From Thermoproteota archaeon (GTDB lineage: Archaea; Thermoproteota; Methanomethylicia; Culexarchaeales; B10-G16), in contig QMRB01000008.1 of NCBI GenBank assembly GCA_003649185.1, positions 1 to 33,247 of the forward strand: DNA of 33,247 nt. The letters run 5' to 3'. This document shows, piece after piece, positions 11,007-30,138 of the stretch; positions within the stretch are counted from its first letter, which is position 1, and each line of letters begins with the position of its first letter. The notes beneath the pieces were generated by a model, which saw only the letters and a list, made by a program, of their open reading frames with translations, did no database searches and had not been told where the DNA came from. Both the position numbers and the translations under genes were made by a program.

Positions 11007-12017
11007 ATGAGCATGGAGAATTACAGTATCATCGCTGAAATTTTAATAGCATCATTCCTATCAACTTTCATTGCAATGCCCATTATAATGAAAGTTATGA
11101 GGAGATTGAATATTCTTGGAATAGATGTCCATAAGCCTGATAGACCTGATGTACCTGAGATGGGTGGAATAGGCATAATACTTGGAATAGCTGTGGGAGC
11201 TTTCATAATTTATGCTTGGACTGGAAATTCAAAGTATTTGGCATATATATCCACAGTTAGCTTTGTAGGTTTAATCGGATTGATAGACGACCTCTATATT
11301 TTGAAAGCCAAAGTTAAGACTATGCTGACCATTATGGGTTTTCTTCCACTTCTCATATTTGCAATTCAATATCCCAGCCAAATAGTTTTAGGTAGACCTG
11401 AACTTCCATTTATAGGTAGGCTTAGACTCACAATTATTTATTGGCTTCTCTTACCATTTGCAATAGCGGTTCCAGCAAATGCAGTGAACATGATGGATAC
11501 ATATAATGGGGTTATGTCTGGAAGTGTAGCTATAGCTTCATCATCCCTTCTCATATCCTCCATAATATTGGGAAGATGGGATTCAGCATATATGTCGGCT
11601 ATACTTTTAGGAGCAATCTCAGCATTCTATTATTATAACAGGTATCCTGCAAGGGTTTTCGCAGGAGATGTTGGAAGCTTATCGGTGGGTGCAGCGATAG
11701 GAGCAATCTCAGTTCTAGGAAGAGTGGAGATTATAGGTGTAACCGTCTTAATGCCATTTATAATGAACGCTTTCCACTCCCTCTCAAGTTTAGGTGGACT
11801 TTTAGAGAGGAGAGAGATTAAGGAGAGACCTGTAATAGTTGAGGGGGGAATTTTGAAGGCTAATGTGAAGAAAGGAGCACCTGAAACACTTGCAAACTTG
11901 CTTCTCAGAAAAGGGGAGGCTACAGAACTGGAACTGATAAATGCATATCATCTATTAGCCCTTATAGCTGGACTTCTCGGAGTGATAACGGCTATACTGA
12001 TGAGAGTGAAAATATGA
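11007..12017 (+). CDS. GlcNAc-1-phosphate transferase-like GT4 (AglH/WecA/MraY superfamily)
   Basis: About 336 residues with 10 predicted membrane spans. All landmarks of the polyprenyl-phosphate N-acetylhexosamine-1-phosphate transferases are present: HKPDRPDVPEMGGIGI near the N-terminus, the Asp pair GLIGLIDDLY, NAVNMMDTYNGVMSG (nucleotide/Mg binding) and FAGDVGSLSVGAAIG. The enzyme puts the first sugar phosphate from a UDP-sugar on dolichyl phosphate at the inner membrane face. ATG 11007 is chosen; TTG 10998 or ATG 11013 are alternatives. It shares ATGA with the next gene, so the two are translationally coupled. In this locus it probably starts the N-glycan or surface glycan lipid carrier. 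Confidence 0.85.
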   Translation: MSMENYSIIAEILIASFLSTFIAMPIIMKVMRRLNILGIDVHKPDRPDVPEMGGIGIILGIAVGAFIIYAWTGNSKYLAYISTVSFVGLIGLIDDLYILKAKVKTMLTIMGFLPLLIFAIQYPSQIVLGRPELPFIGRLRLTIIYWLLLPFAIAVPANAVNMMDTYNGVMSGSVAIASSSLLISSIILGRWDSAYMSAILLGAISAFYYYNRYPARVFAGDVGSLSVGAAIGAISVLGRVEIIGVTVLMPFIMNAFHSLSSLGGLLERREIKERPVIVEGGILKANVKKGAPETLANLLLRKGEATELELINAYHLLALIAGLLGVITAILMRVKI

Positions 12018-25290: not shown

Positions 25291-25762
25291 AAAATATTTT
25301 CACATATGAGAATTTAAATTTAAGTAGAGTGTAGAGTAGAAGAAGATCATTTAAAGCAGGTGGAGTAGAAGTATATGAGTGACGATAATCAATCCAACAT
25401 GGAACACTATTAGAATATTTAGAGGCTTATCATGACTCTGCTCAAAGTTAAAAATTTAAAGACATATTATTTGACATTGAGAGGATGGGTTAGAGCAGTT
25501 CGGCTATAATTGTAAAAGAGAAGAACCTGAACCTATACCGGTTAATAGTGAACATTTAGTGGCATGCCACTTACATGCTAAATAATTTTGTAGCTATCTG
25601 GATTTCAAGTTTATTTCACATAAAAATTTAGGAATTAATTTTATTTAACTCGATCTAATAGTTATCTAATTAATATTGAAGTAGTTCTATGAATTAAATA
25701 TGGAACAAGATAATTGGGCAATATCCTTAAACATTAAGTTAATCGTGCTATCGGCATCAACA
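25291..25762. other. AT-rich gap holding one gene relic
   Basis: Apart from the oppD relic at 25432-25585 I see no gene, RNA or clear repeat. TCAATCCAACATG at 25389-25401 also occurs at 22208-22220; this is a short match without context. Confidence 0.5.
25432..25585 (+). pseudogene. Collapsed oppD/dppD (peptide ABC transporter ATPase) relic
   Basis: An ATG at 25432 reads LLKVKNLKTYYLTLRGWVRAV in frame, the N-terminus of OppD/DppD-type ATPases, and soon stops at 25507. One frame away, GYNCKREEPEPIPVNSEHLV then ACHLHAK runs to TAA 25583-25585, the C-terminal end of the same family (C.YEEP.L.EVE.GHFVACHL). About 260 residues in between, including Walker A, the ABC signature and Walker B, are gone. 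So one internal deletion joined the two ends. No other Opp genes are in the window. Confidence 0.75.
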
Positions 25763-26107
25763 TTACAACATGTAAATTATTTTCCTTCTATGAAAAGTCT
25801 TTTTAACAGCCGTAGGAATATTCTGCTTCCACCCATCTTTGGAATCCTCTCTAAACAGCCATTCGCACATAACTGTATTCGGGTTTACTCTAATATATTT
25901 TTGAGCCTTATTGATTAGGATCTTTAACTCTCTTTCAGACGTATAGTCTAGTGGTTCTCCAGCCATCTCTGCATCGATCCAACATTCATATAGGATTCTG
26001 TTGATCTTCAAGACATCCGGATCTCCATAAAAAGCAGCCATAATCCAATTGTTAGATTCGAGATGTATTCTGTGGAGGTTGAGAAGTTTATCCCTTAAAT
26101 TCTCCAA
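25763..26107 (-). CDS. Small protein of unknown function
   Basis: 114 residues, soluble and helical, with a mixed-charge composition (LYECWIDAEMAGEPLDYTSE, then RELKILINKAQKYIRVNPNT). No recognised family and no membrane segment. The start is TTG at 26107 without a good ribosome-binding site, and the last 20 residues are Lys/Arg-rich, so a decayed 3' end is possible. It is isolated between the oppD relic and nadC. Confidence 0.45.
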   Translation of the reverse strand: MENLRDKLLNLHRIHLESNNWIMAAFYGDPDVLKINRILYECWIDAEMAGEPLDYTSERELKILINKAQKYIRVNPNTVMCEWLFREDSKDGWKQNIPTAVKKTFHRRKIIYML

Positions 26108-26208
26108 ATTGAAGCACTATTTAAAATAATTATTCATCAAACTTAATAATATAACTCCACGGAAAGCTCAGTTTGAATGGTCGTAGTGCTTGAAAGAAGT
26201 CTTCAACT

Positions 26209-27063
26209 TCACCTGATTAGATCAACAACTTTAAGACTTATATCTATAGGTTTTGAAGAATGGGTTATCCATCCACTACTTATAACGTCAACATCATATT
26301 TGGCATATTCCCTAACGTTTTCAGGTCTAATTCCCCCTGAAACTTCAATGATAATGTTATCTCTTAAACCGGAAGTTTTCAAAAGGTTAACGGCGACTTC
26401 CACATCGCTGGGGGAAAAATTGTCCAGCATTATTATGTCAGCCCCCGCCTTTGCAGCCTTCAAAGCTTCATCCGGATCTTTAACTTCCACTTCAACTTTT
26501 CTCGTAAAACTCGCAGATCTCTTGGCTTCAGATACAGCTTTATATAGGTCTCCGAAGATGAAGATATGATTATCCTTTATTATTATGGCATCACTTAAGC
26601 TTAACCTGTGAGTATCTCCTCCACCAGCAATAACTGCTCGCTTCTCAAAATATCTTAAACCAGGCAGAGTTTTCCTTGTTGCTGCAATCTTCACCCTTGG
26701 ATTAACACTCCTAGCATAATCTACAAGTTTCCTTGTGGCAGTGGCAACACCGCAACAATGGCTGAGAAGATTTAAGATAAGCCTTTCGAGAAGAAGTATC
26801 TTCCTCGCTGAACCTATAAGCTCCATTAGAATTGTGTTTTCATCGAAACATTCACCATCATCCACCTTTAAATCAACCTTCAATCCAAAATCTTCAAGAA
26901 TTATCTTTAAATCCCTCATGCATGCTGCAACTCCCTTTTCCTTCGCGATTACATGTGCCTTAGCAATCAGCTCCTCACGTATTAGAATTGTTGAGGTTAA
27001 ATCCCAGAATGGCACATCCTCTCTTAACCATTCCAAAAATTTCGATTTTAAGAGCGTCTCCAA
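26209..27063 (-). CDS. nadC: Nicotinate-nucleotide pyrophosphorylase (carboxylating), NadC
   Basis: 284 residues, normal. The type II PRTase signatures are present: FWDLTSTIL at the start, AATRKTLPGLRYFEKRAVIA with GGGDTHRLSLSDAIIIKDNH, EVEVKDPDEALKAAKAGADI, MLDNFSP and IIEVSGGIRPENV. It converts quinolinate plus PRPP to NaMN and CO2, the last step of de novo NAD ring formation. The start is TTG at 27063, 16 bases inside the end of nadA, so the two genes are coupled. No nadB or aspartate dehydrogenase gene is in the window. Confidence 0.92.
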   Translation of the reverse strand: METLLKSKFLEWLREDVPFWDLTSTILIREELIAKAHVIAKEKGVAACMRDLKIILEDFGLKVDLKVDDGECFDENTILMELIGSARKILLLERLILNLLSHCCGVATATRKLVDYARSVNPRVKIAATRKTLPGLRYFEKRAVIAGGGDTHRLSLSDAIIIKDNHIFIFGDLYKAVSEAKRSASFTRKVEVEVKDPDEALKAAKAGADIIMLDNFSPSDVEVAVNLLKTSGLRDNIIIEVSGGIRPENVREYAKYDVDVISSGWITHSSKPIDISLKVVDLIR

Positions 27064-27989
27064 GGCACCTCGACCCCTAAGAGCTCATAGGATCTCTCAA
27101 GTATTTTCATCACTTTACTTGAAAACTTCTCGGAAACTTTAACTGGATATACATGTTCTCTAATGCTTCTTAAAATCTTCTCCAGAGTTATCTTCTTCAT
27201 ATTTATACATATGGCGTCCTTACATGCTGGATGAACCATCTTCCCAGCACATTCCTTGGAGATCCTGTAGGTTAAACCTATCTCAGTTCCTATGATAAAA
27301 TTTTTATTAGCGGATGTTTTCACATAATTTAACATTTGGCCCGTACTACCTATATAATCTGCAAGCCTCCTAACGCTTTTCAAACATTCCGGATGAACTG
27401 CAACATTCACATAATGAAGTTTTTCCTTAAGATTTAAAATGTGTTCGGGCTTTATCTTCAAGTGTACTGGGCAGTGGCCATGTGGAGGAATTGGAATAAC
27501 AGTTTTCCCTGTTTTTTCTTCCACATATTCAGCTAGCTGCCTATCCGGCCCAAAAATTATGGTGTCTGCTTCAAGCTGAGAAACCAGTTTGACTGCACTT
27601 GAACTTGTAACTATATAGTCTGCTTCAGCCTTAACGTCAGCTGTAGTGTTAACATAGATTACTATGGGGGCATGTGGATATTTATCTCGGGCTTTCCTCA
27701 CAATCTCCGGATTTATCATAGCCGCCATTGGACATTTAGCGTTGAAGTCAGGGATTAAAACGGTTTTACCTCTCGCTAGAATAGATGCCTGCTCAGCCAT
27801 AAAGTAAACTCCTGCAAACACGATAATTTTAGAGGTTAAATTCATAGCTTTAATTGAGAGTTGAAGACTGTCACCTACAAAGTCCGCTATATCCTGAACG
27901 TTTGGAGACTGATAGTTGTGGGCCAATATGGTTGCATCAACAGTTCTCTTCAATTTCTCAATGAAAAATTGTATATCACCATTTAACAT
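27048..27989 (-). CDS. nadA: Quinolinate synthase NadA
   Basis: 313 residues with the NadA three-fold repeat: ATILAHNYQSPNVQDIADFV, GDSLQLS, and cysteines for the 4Fe-4S cluster in KCPMAAMI, VHPECLKSV and HPACKDAICINMKKI. It condenses iminoaspartate with DHAP to quinolinate in the cytosol. The start codon follows AAGGGG on the minus strand. It is the first gene of nadAC, divergent from the NAD-kinase-like/HTH gene. Confidence 0.92.
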   Translation of the reverse strand: MLNGDIQFFIEKLKRTVDATILAHNYQSPNVQDIADFVGDSLQLSIKAMNLTSKIIVFAGVYFMAEQASILARGKTVLIPDFNAKCPMAAMINPEIVRKARDKYPHAPIVIYVNTTADVKAEADYIVTSSSAVKLVSQLEADTIIFGPDRQLAEYVEEKTGKTVIPIPPHGHCPVHLKIKPEHILNLKEKLHYVNVAVHPECLKSVRRLADYIGSTGQMLNYVKTSANKNFIIGTEIGLTYRISKECAGKMVHPACKDAICINMKKITLEKILRSIREHVYPVKVSEKFSSKVMKILERSYELLGVEVPWRRS

Positions 27990-28040
27990 ATATAAAACCC
28001 CTTAGAATAGAGATAATAGATATAGATAAGTAGTTATGAT
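27990..28040. promoter_or_regulatory. nadA / NAD-kinase-like divergent promoter with TAGATA repeats
   Basis: The spacer contains AGATA-aTAGATA-tAGATA (28010-28029), reading CTATATCTATTATCT on the other strand. This gives a TATA-like box for nadA and a tandem 6-7-base repeat that could be a regulator site. Confidence 0.35.
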
Positions 28041-28082
28041 ATGGACAATATTTGCTTCAATCCTCACTTGGAGATGCAAAAA

Positions 28083-29093
28083 ATGCGGAGAATTAGAAGG
28101 GCAACTCTATATGTGCCGAGAGGAGGATTAAAGGTAAAGGTGAAATTGAAAGAGATTTTGGAGAGATATGGAATTGAAAGCATGAATTTCGATTCTTCAG
28201 ATAAAATTTCAGGTAAAGATTCAGATATCACCATAATTGTTGGAACCGACAGCGATCTCCTAGGACTTCTCCAAACAGCTAAAGGGAGAATACCGCCAAT
28301 ATTCCATATAAGTCCACCGGCAATAGAAACATTCTTCTCATCGGTAAATTGGGAGAATATGGAGATTGGAGTTGAGAGGATTGTTGAAGGAGACTTTAAG
28401 GTGGAAGATCTAACCCGAATTAAAGCCTGCATCGAGGGGGGCAGAGAAGTTTATGCACTCAACGAAATAGCTCTCTTCGCATCTAAAAGCGCTTTACTGG
28501 TGGAATATGCCTTAGAGATAAATGGGGAGAGCATCTGGAGAGATCTCTCTGATGGGGTTATAGTATCAACACCAACAGGATCCACAGCCTATGCATATTC
28601 AGTTGGAGGACCAATAATATCAAGGGAAGCCGATGTTCTAGCGATAATCCCCGTAAATTCCCTGAACCCTAATAGGAGAGCACTTATAGTGCCTGACAAT
28701 TCGAGGATAATTCTTAAAGATATAAATAGTAGGGTGAAATGTGAAATCATTGCAGATGGAATAACAAGGTATAGGGTGAACAGGAGAGTTGAAATTTTAA
28801 AGGCTGAAAACTCCATCAAAATGGTAAGGTTAATGGATGGATTATCCGAAACCATTAGAAGAAAAATTAAGTTAATCCATGAAGTAAAGGATATGCCTCC
28901 AAGCGCAAAGTTCGTTCTCAAAATATTGGAGATGCATGGAGAGTTAAGTATGGATGAATTGGAAGAACTTACGGGTTTACCTAAACGCACAATAAGATAT
29001 GCGCTCTCACTTTTGACTAAAAGGGGACTTGTAAATAAAATTTACAATTTGAGAGATGCACGTAGAAGATTATATAAAATAGCTAGGATTTAA
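28083..29093 (+). CDS. NAD-kinase-like protein fused to a C-terminal winged helix
   Basis: 336 residues. Residues 1-255 follow NAD kinase: the ATP-side motif GGDGTLL appears as GTDSDLL (Asp56 kept, both glycines lost), then LNEIAL (NE) and DGVIVSTPTGSTAYAYSVGG, the NAD-binding core. Residues 271-336 are a MarR/IclR-like winged helix (KFVLKILEMHGELSMDELEE, LTGLPKRTIRYALSLLTKRG, LVNKIYNLRDARRRLYKI), which NAD kinases do not have. Being divergent from nadAC, it may sense NAD(P) and regulate NAD synthesis, or be a self-regulating kinase. I prefer ATG 28083, with GGAG upstream; ATG 28041 is in frame. Confidence 0.8.
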   Translation: MRRIRRATLYVPRGGLKVKVKLKEILERYGIESMNFDSSDKISGKDSDITIIVGTDSDLLGLLQTAKGRIPPIFHISPPAIETFFSSVNWENMEIGVERIVEGDFKVEDLTRIKACIEGGREVYALNEIALFASKSALLVEYALEINGESIWRDLSDGVIVSTPTGSTAYAYSVGGPIISREADVLAIIPVNSLNPNRRALIVPDNSRIILKDINSRVKCEIIADGITRYRVNRRVEILKAENSIKMVRLMDGLSETIRRKIKLIHEVKDMPPSAKFVLKILEMHGELSMDELEELTGLPKRTIRYALSLLTKRGLVNKIYNLRDARRRLYKIARI

Positions 29094-29197
29094 ACTTTCA
29101 ACTAAACTTTAAATTTCACATTTTAATTAGCTATATGGATATTCTGAAAGCTGTAGAGGAAAAAATTTATGAAATAAATTTTATTCATAGAACAGGG

Positions 29198-29298
29198 GCC
29201 TCGGTAGTATAGTCCGGTCAAGTATTCAGGCCTCTCGAGCCTAATTCGCTGCGTGGGGAAAGCCTGAGACCCGGGTTCAAATCCCGGCCGAGGCACCA
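29198..29298 (+). tRNA. tRNA-Glu(CUC) with a 23-nt intron
   Basis: Acceptor GCCTCGG/CCGAGGC, D stem GTAT/GTAT (G-U closed), anticodon stem CAGGC/GCCTG with loop CTCTCGA after splicing (anticodon CTC), variable AGAC, T arm CCGGG-TTCAAAT-CCCGG, A and encoded CCA. Without removing an intron after base 37, the anticodon stem would not close. Confidence 0.9.
29238..29260 (+). other. tRNA-Glu intron (canonical 37/38, BHB)
   Basis: 23 nt. Loop bases CTCT (32-35) can pair with GGGG near the intron end, flanked by three-base bulges CGA and AAA, which is a bulge-helix-bulge for the archaeal splicing endonuclease. Confidence 0.8.
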
Positions 29299-29304
29299 CA
29301 AACC

Positions 29305-30138
29305 TTAACATTCCATAATGGTCTTTGCAGATTCGACGATTCCTTTAAGCTTCTTAGAGCTTATCTTCGTCAATCTTCCAACTTCATCAAAGGATAATGC
29401 AACCAATTGTTTCAGTAGAATTATCCCTGCCGATGAAAATCTTTCCCTCAAATTTTCATTCAACCCTCTAATATACGTTATAGGATAAAGCTTCTTCTTT
29501 TCAATCATAATTCTTAAATTCCAGGGTTCAGGTGAATTCCAGCCTATATGGAGGATTCCTCTACAGTCCGCATATCTCCTTGCATGTTCAGAGAGCTTCG
29601 TATTACAGACGATTATAGCAGTATCTATCTTCAAATTATTCAATCCCAATAGATAGCCCTCATTCAGATCTTCAAGGACAGCTCTAGCTATTCTACTTAC
29701 ATCTAAACCTGTAGGTGTATGATAATTGTAGTGGTGTTTAACCTCCACAATGTATGTTTTTCCATTTCTTATCGCGATGCCATCCACTTCATGCTCCACA
29801 CATCTTCCTCTCAAAATTCTATTTGAATAAACCTTGAATCCATAGTTTTTTAGGATAATTCTAACGTAACATTCGAAATCCGGTTTCGGCTTCATAAGAG
29901 CTAGTGCTCTACGAAGATCCATTTTATGCTTCACTGAGGGCACATATTTCTCCAACTCCTCGAAGACCATTTCGAGAATTATGTTCGTTTTAATCCCATC
30001 ATAAAGCTTGGAGCTTATGTTTTCTGCAACGGTTTCTGCAACGGCTCTACTTGCCCCAAGCCTTAAACAGGTCTGTATAACTTTTTCTTCATCATAAGGT
30101 TGCTTTGAACCGTCAGCTCTGATAACATGAAGCAACAT
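29305..30138 (-). CDS. ATP-cone / PD-(D/E)XK nuclease / HhH protein
   Basis: 277 residues in three parts. Residues 1-85: an ATP-cone (HVIRADGSKQPYDEEKVIQT, then GASRAVAETVAENI), the nucleotide-sensing domain of ribonucleotide reductases. Residues 88-215: a restriction-endonuclease-like fold with HEVDG (D119), YIVEVKHH (E132, K134) and a following TAIIVCNTKLS strand, which matches the PD-(D/E)XK D-x12-E-x-K spacing. Residues 231-277: a helix-hairpin-helix-like DNA-binding end (LVALSFDEVGRLTKISSKKL). It is probably a nucleotide-controlled nuclease in DNA repair or defence. It ends 6 bases from the tRNA-Glu, so it lies in a tRNA-adjacent position. Start ATG 30138. Confidence 0.75.
   Translation of the reverse strand: MLLHVIRADGSKQPYDEEKVIQTCLRLGASRAVAETVAENISSKLYDGIKTNIILEMVFEELEKYVPSVKHKMDLRRALALMKPKPDFECYVRIILKNYGFKVYSNRILRGRCVEHEVDGIAIRNGKTYIVEVKHHYNYHTPTGLDVSRIARAVLEDLNEGYLLGLNNLKIDTAIIVCNTKLSEHARRYADCRGILHIGWNSPEPWNLRIMIEKKKLYPITYIRGLNENLRERFSSAGIILLKQLVALSFDEVGRLTKISSKKLKGIVESAKTIMEC

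Follow-up and report, generated by a model that had tools for sequence, protein, structure and literature searches.

Whether a protein that resembles NAD kinase, carries a winged helix and is encoded beside genes of NAD synthesis is an enzyme or a regulator is the question raised by this locus. It lies in a 33,247-nucleotide stretch of DNA from a Thermoproteota archaeon (contig QMRB01000008.1, positions 1 to 33,247), which is referred to here as the window. The sequence-only reading had proposed that the NAD kinase fold was reused as a NAD(P)-sensing regulator of nadA and nadC. Comparative genomics, through the gene neighbours and a palindrome shared in trans, gave this proposal strong support, the ligand remaining inferred. 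We consider it likely that the fusion protein is a dedicated transcription factor for NAD supply that senses NAD(P) and binds the palindrome. The genes and domains concerned are the following.

26209-27063, minus strand: nadC, quinolinate phosphoribosyltransferase (TIGR00078, 315 bits), overlapping nadA
27048-27989, minus strand: nadA, quinolinate synthase (TIGR00550, 324 bits)
28083-29093, plus strand: NAD-kinase-like/winged-helix fusion gene, with its probable true start at ATG 28083 and the reading frame open from 28041
28083-28835, plus strand: NAD-kinase-like domain, the predicted ligand-sensing part (PF20143, 74.7 bits; best fold matches are solved NAD kinases)
28890-29063, plus strand: MarR-like winged-helix DNA-binding domain (PF12802, 30.6 bits; helices and wing present in the model)

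The strands confirm the divergent arrangement of the fusion gene and nadA-nadC that had been described, and nadA and nadC overlap each other. The open reading frame of the fusion gene (28041-29093, plus strand) encodes 350 residues. ATG 28083, the start adopted in the earlier reading, is most likely the real one, since a predicted operator (28044-28055) lies within the open stretch that precedes it and homologues also start close by. Directly downstream of the fusion gene lies a tRNA gene of 98 bases (29198-29295, Rfam RF00005), which probably bears an intron.

Pfam models placed NAD_kinase_C (PF20143) at residues 140-263 and a MarR_2 winged helix (PF12802) at residues 284-341, the latter above its curated cut-off of 27; the N-terminal NAD_kinase model (PF01513) had no Pfam match in the protein. 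An AlphaFold model computed from a 28-row alignment (A1) reached a pLDDT of 85 and a pTM of 0.70. Its top structural matches were solved NAD kinases (7qvs, E 4.7e-27), and in the model the C-terminal winged helix forms a separate helical domain. The claimed combination of a NAD kinase fold with a C-terminal winged helix was thus borne out by the Pfam matches, the model and the structure matches. NCBIfam NAD kinase models aligned over residues ~50-277, the best at 118 bits against an equivalog cut-off of 326, a cut-off that the canonical NAD kinase of the same genome (L002:1009-1857, GGDGT present) also fails to reach, at 258 bits. A third protein of the NAD kinase superfamily in this genome is AcoX-like (368 aa, L001:880-1986, contig 11) and adjoins a tRNA synthetase gene.

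In comparison with NAD kinases (PF01513/PF20143; the archaeal PRK03708 type), the fusion protein shares the fold, the NE, D-G and TPTGSTAY motifs of the NAD site and the best PDB matches. It differs from them by a degenerate GGDGT loop (G-x-D-[KRS]-x) and the added winged helix, and by forming a separate clade that occurs as a second copy alongside the canonical kinase. The criterion of a NAD kinase fold with NE and TxxGSTAY is met, whereas the GGDG phosphate-binding criterion of a competent kinase is not, since the motif reads GTDSD. The motifs lie as follows.

28242-28256, plus strand: degenerate GGDGT motif, reading GTDSD; G1 and D3 invariant in 144 family members, position 4 mostly Lys/Arg
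28461-28466, plus strand: NE motif of the NAD site; N invariant across the family
28548-28592, plus strand: NAD-binding core SDGVIVSTPTGSTAY; D, G, G, S and Y invariant, T, P and A nearly so
28569-28592, plus strand: TPTGSTAY motif
28755-28769, plus strand: DGxxR motif; D and G invariant, Arg in 139 of 144 members

Both the fusion and the motif change recur in homologues. Position 4 of the GGDGT motif is Lys in 67 of the 144 members, Arg in 57, Ser in 13, Gly in six and Cys in one (K/R/S in 137/144). The N of NE, the D-G of SDG, the G-S-x-x-Y of the core and the D-G of DGxxR are invariant in the same set, and the TPxGS(T/S)AY core is conserved. Judged from the invariant NAD-site residues against the variable fourth position, the dinucleotide side is strongly constrained and the ATP-phosphate loop is not. 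The earlier description of NE and TPTGSTAY as kept and GGDGT as altered to GTDSD therefore holds, with the refinement that the motif Asp is retained. This invariant Asp is one of the points in favour of a DNA-binding protein that still functions as a NAD kinase and so couples regulation to NADP synthesis. Such a reading also draws on the intact GGDGT of the deepest member of the family (L112, Baldrarchaeum) and, from general knowledge, on enterobacterial NadR as a precedent for an enzyme that is also a regulator. We regard it as unlikely, however, given the substitutions at position 4 in members whose own genomes keep GGDG in their canonical NAD kinases, and given that the genomes checked encode a canonical kinase as well.

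The fusion is not a chance join, as it is conserved in well over 100 genomes. It was found in about 29 of 100 relatives searched, and a profile search with the C-terminal half gave strong matches in some 136 of the 398 genomes sampled from the phylum (rows with E < 1e-28, including a few fragments). Group f18 contributes more distant members (E 1e-13 to 1e-19), and the fusion is also present in Asgard archaea and Korarchaeia; the named records comprise Nitrosopumilus, Nitrososphaera, Terraquivivens, Thermofilales, Geoarchaeota, Methanodesulfokora, Baldrarchaeum and Njordarchaeota. Scanning the genome contigs with a single sequence recovered no relatives; it took the profile of the C-terminal alignment (A2) to find them. 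When 31 representative fusions were placed in a tree with 21 canonical NAD kinases, all of the fusions grouped in one clade (support 100/97). The family is one ancient clade of single origin, and this origin, like the fusion itself and the conservation of its motifs, is established by computation. Nearly all fusion-bearing relatives checked also encode a separate canonical NAD kinase. With midpoint rooting the deepest branch is the GGDGT-bearing Baldrarchaeum protein, and kinase activity may therefore not be lost everywhere. This Asgard member, whose gene ends at 8453 of L112, could represent an evolutionary intermediate with kinase activity.

The neighbourhoods of the family, also established by computation, point to NAD synthesis and salvage. 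The fusion gene adjoins nadA in six family-level groups (the window, f14, f34 of the Thermofilales, f11, f62 and f18). The usual neighbour order is nadA-nadC-aspartate dehydrogenase, of which the window has nadA-nadC only. The fusion gene is mostly divergent from nadA; in three f18 genomes (L059, L060, L224) it is co-directional and upstream of it. In two Asgard genomes without nadA (L095, L111) it lies 32 and 78 bases upstream of a nicotinate phosphoribosyltransferase gene, and this enzyme is encoded in every nadA-less fusion genome tested. The regulatory proposal would have been refuted had homologues never occurred near NAD genes, which is not the case. In other genomes without nadA the fusion gene adjoins an MFS transporter of the aromatic-acid-symport type (Korarchaeia, L156; f47, L212; f35, L219; f18, L229, L055 and L056), an ABC uptake system (L217, L218) or an APC permease (f27; L036, L221, L236). 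We infer that these transporters are niacin carriers, although no substrate has been shown. In Candidatus Terraquivivens (L037-L040, L042), mostly without nadA, the neighbours are genes for ribosomal protein L15e, enolase and prefoldin; no target of the fusion protein is evident among them, and the sole nadA there has no palindrome site.

Two further neighbours were observed. In ammonia-oxidising archaea the fusion gene is immediately preceded by a gene for a PfkB-type sugar/nucleoside kinase, perhaps one that acts on pyridine nucleosides. In one genome (L199, G376; fusion gene 11015-11992) a divergent sodium:solute symporter gene, a candidate pyridine transporter, lies close by, with a perfect GCAATTATTGC between the two.

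L044:8490-9359, same strand as the fusion gene: PfkB-type kinase gene, with equivalents in L041, L045-L047, L092 and L226 (gaps ~30-70 bases in most)

The divergent intergenic regions of fusion loci share the element GGCAANNNTTGC, identified by comparison. In the window the region between nadA and the fusion gene contains two predicted features.

28044-28055, no strand assigned: predicted operator GACAATATTTGC, a degenerate copy of GGCAANNNTTGCC, positioned with respect to nadA as it is in relatives
28020-28030, minus strand: TATA-like box of nadA, CTTATCTATAT, inferred from sequence and from the same arrangement in relatives

The window copy is degenerate (GACAATATTTGCT) and lies ~25 bases upstream of the TATA-like box of nadA, as in relatives. 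Motif counts in the window and in its own genome were not significant, and the other matches in that genome are not near NAD genes. The predicted operator in the window thus rests on position and comparison rather than on counts, with no binding data. Control of nadA by a NAD+ riboswitch (nadA motif) was also considered and rejected: Rfam at the gathering threshold gave no such match upstream of nadA and only the tRNA in 25500-29400, and the palindrome lies upstream of the TATA-like box.

Counted over all 147 fusion loci, the motif showed no overall enrichment (49 observed versus 48 expected), because the fusion gene is mostly not adjacent to its targets, and the test was therefore moved to nadA promoters with controls. 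The palindrome TGGCAANNNTTGCCA also marks nadA promoters in genomes whose fusion gene is remote from nadA. In Nitrosopumilaceae, where the two genes are far apart, the GCAANNNTTGC core is complete in eight of nine nadA promoters, at about -86 to -97, and departs at a single position in the ninth; a complete core is also present in the nadA promoter of f30 (L083). A further set of 20 nadA promoters, beyond the first, was drawn from genomes searched as fusion carriers with the gene elsewhere. Defining a site as at least seven of eight core positions within 160 bases of nadA, with independent scoring also made, we found one in 20/20 of these and in 2/20 promoters from genomes without the fusion (Fisher p 3.4e-9); perfect cores numbered 13 and none, respectively. 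Most of the 20 positives come from related Nitrososphaeria/ammonia oxidisers, so the p-value overstates their independence, and in two of them (G108, G303) the fusion match itself is weak. The exact 13-mer GGCAANNNTTGCC occurs once genome-wide in each of five Nitrosopumilaceae (G072, G079, G105, G128, G168), immediately before nadA, in the gap that separates it from the aspartate dehydrogenase gene. The only copy in G283 sits between the fusion gene and an MFS gene. The operator and its link to the fusion are in this sense computational results.

A different protein might regulate through the palindrome, the fusion protein being a paralogous enzyme of NAD metabolism that merely co-occurs with NAD genes. 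There are no binding data for the fusion protein to exclude this, and some fusion genomes (L078; L075, L076) have no site near nadA. Yet the presence of the site tracks the fusion across the two sets of promoters, and a site is found in the fusion gene's own intergenic region in f14, f34, f11, f62, f53 and f47, as expected for a neighbouring regulator that controls itself. We therefore consider another regulator very unlikely. Still less credit can be given to the idea that the winged helix serves oligomerisation or protein contact without specific DNA binding, in a divergent NAD-related enzyme. Winged helices can serve protein contacts, and DNA binding by the fusion protein is without a test; this idea, however, has to contend with the helix conservation across the family (LP-RTVR-AL), the MarR score above the Pfam cut-off and the co-conserved palindrome.

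The site is not general at nicotinate phosphoribosyltransferase promoters, a possibility that was rejected because only a few of 30 have it (G283, G189, G114). Operator-like sites (GGCAAAATTTGC, GGCAATTCTTGC, GGCAAAACATGCC) were observed 52-85 bases upstream of this gene in L362, L371 and L360. A clear palindrome is missing in some Thermoproteaceae-like genomes, where conservation of the operator is weak.

Returning to the preferred reading of a NAD-supply transcription factor, we propose that a NAD kinase fold was duplicated from the housekeeping enzyme and joined to a MarR-like winged helix. Retention of the dinucleotide site and loss of the ATP-phosphate loop would have turned it from a kinase wholly or mainly into a sensor of NAD(P). 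Acting as a dimer or larger oligomer, the protein would bind the palindrome GGCAANNNTTGCC through its winged helices, between its own gene and nadA, and in other archaea upstream of distant nadA or uptake genes, so that NAD precursor synthesis or uptake could be matched to how much NAD(P) is present. Inferred here, without experiment, are the identity of the ligand (NAD or NADP), the lost kinase activity, oligomeric DNA binding and the sign of regulation. Archaeal activators usually bind upstream of BRE/TATA, and this is where the site falls at nadA in the window, in f14 and in the ammonia oxidisers. In f34, f11 and f62 there is also a second site, which overlaps the start codon of the fusion gene itself; from site position alone this suggests self-repression, and the protein would probably repress its own gene. 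By inference, the Lys/Arg at position 4 of the GGDGT motif may reach the 2'-phosphate of NADP. A more specific version, in which these are pan-archaeal (TACK and Asgard) NADP(H)-sensing factors that take the product of the kinase reaction rather than its substrate as signal, clamp the 2'-phosphate of NADP with the Lys/Arg found in place of the ATP-loop glycine, activate nadA from an upstream site and repress their own gene, is possible, but we hold it only tentatively and with doubt prevailing.

Regulators of NAD genes in bacteria provide the closest functional parallels. NadR is a bacterial NMN adenylyltransferase/ribosylnicotinamide kinase with an HTH domain in enterobacteria, a pathway enzyme joined to DNA binding; to our knowledge, NadR and NiaR are confined to bacteria. 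NiaR is a niacin-responsive repressor that controls niaX, nadC and pnuC (PMC5343564). Both are NAD-pathway regulators like the fusion protein, but their sensor domains are not homologous to its own and the domain order differs. NrtR, a Nudix-fold repressor of bacterial NAD genes, likewise uses a nucleotide-enzyme fold as sensor fused to a winged helix (PMC6800001). It works alike in that this pair of domains controls NAD synthesis genes, whereas its sensor fold is unrelated, its operator is different and it is bacterial. No Nudix, NMNAT/RNK or NiaR sensor domain was among the Pfam or NCBIfam matches of the fusion protein. With MarR-family regulators it shares the MarR_2 match and a short inverted repeat as predicted site; the stand-alone MarR dimerisation helices are absent, and the domain is attached here to a large sensor derived from an enzyme. 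The family has a conserved inverted repeat associated with a MarR-type fusion (an association only, without binding data). It also meets the criterion for a class of NAD-gene regulators, namely conserved linkage to NAD synthesis or salvage genes and a shared operator.

In the open-access literature searched, we found no account of a kinase-HTH regulator, nor of any NAD regulator or NAD-gene regulon in archaea, and all the NAD-gene regulators described there (NrtR, NadR, NiaR) come from bacteria; within that literature the family is apparently undescribed. The proposed assignment would give ammonia-oxidising archaea, Thermofilales, Thermoproteaceae-like genomes, Korarchaeia and Asgard archaea one ancient regulator with a defined operator and targets predicted by name. 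It would add the NAD kinase fold to the NAD-enzyme folds turned sensor, with the GGDGT-bearing Asgard member as a possible intermediate, and would correct the annotation of proteins that sequence alone would name NAD kinases. Small stand-alone proteins (~79-91 aa) that resemble the winged helix alone were also observed, in f27 genera without the full fusion.

G064:C2:63953-64180, G147:C1:1252700 and G392:C1:2469540, no strand assigned: winged-helix-like small proteins of f27 genera
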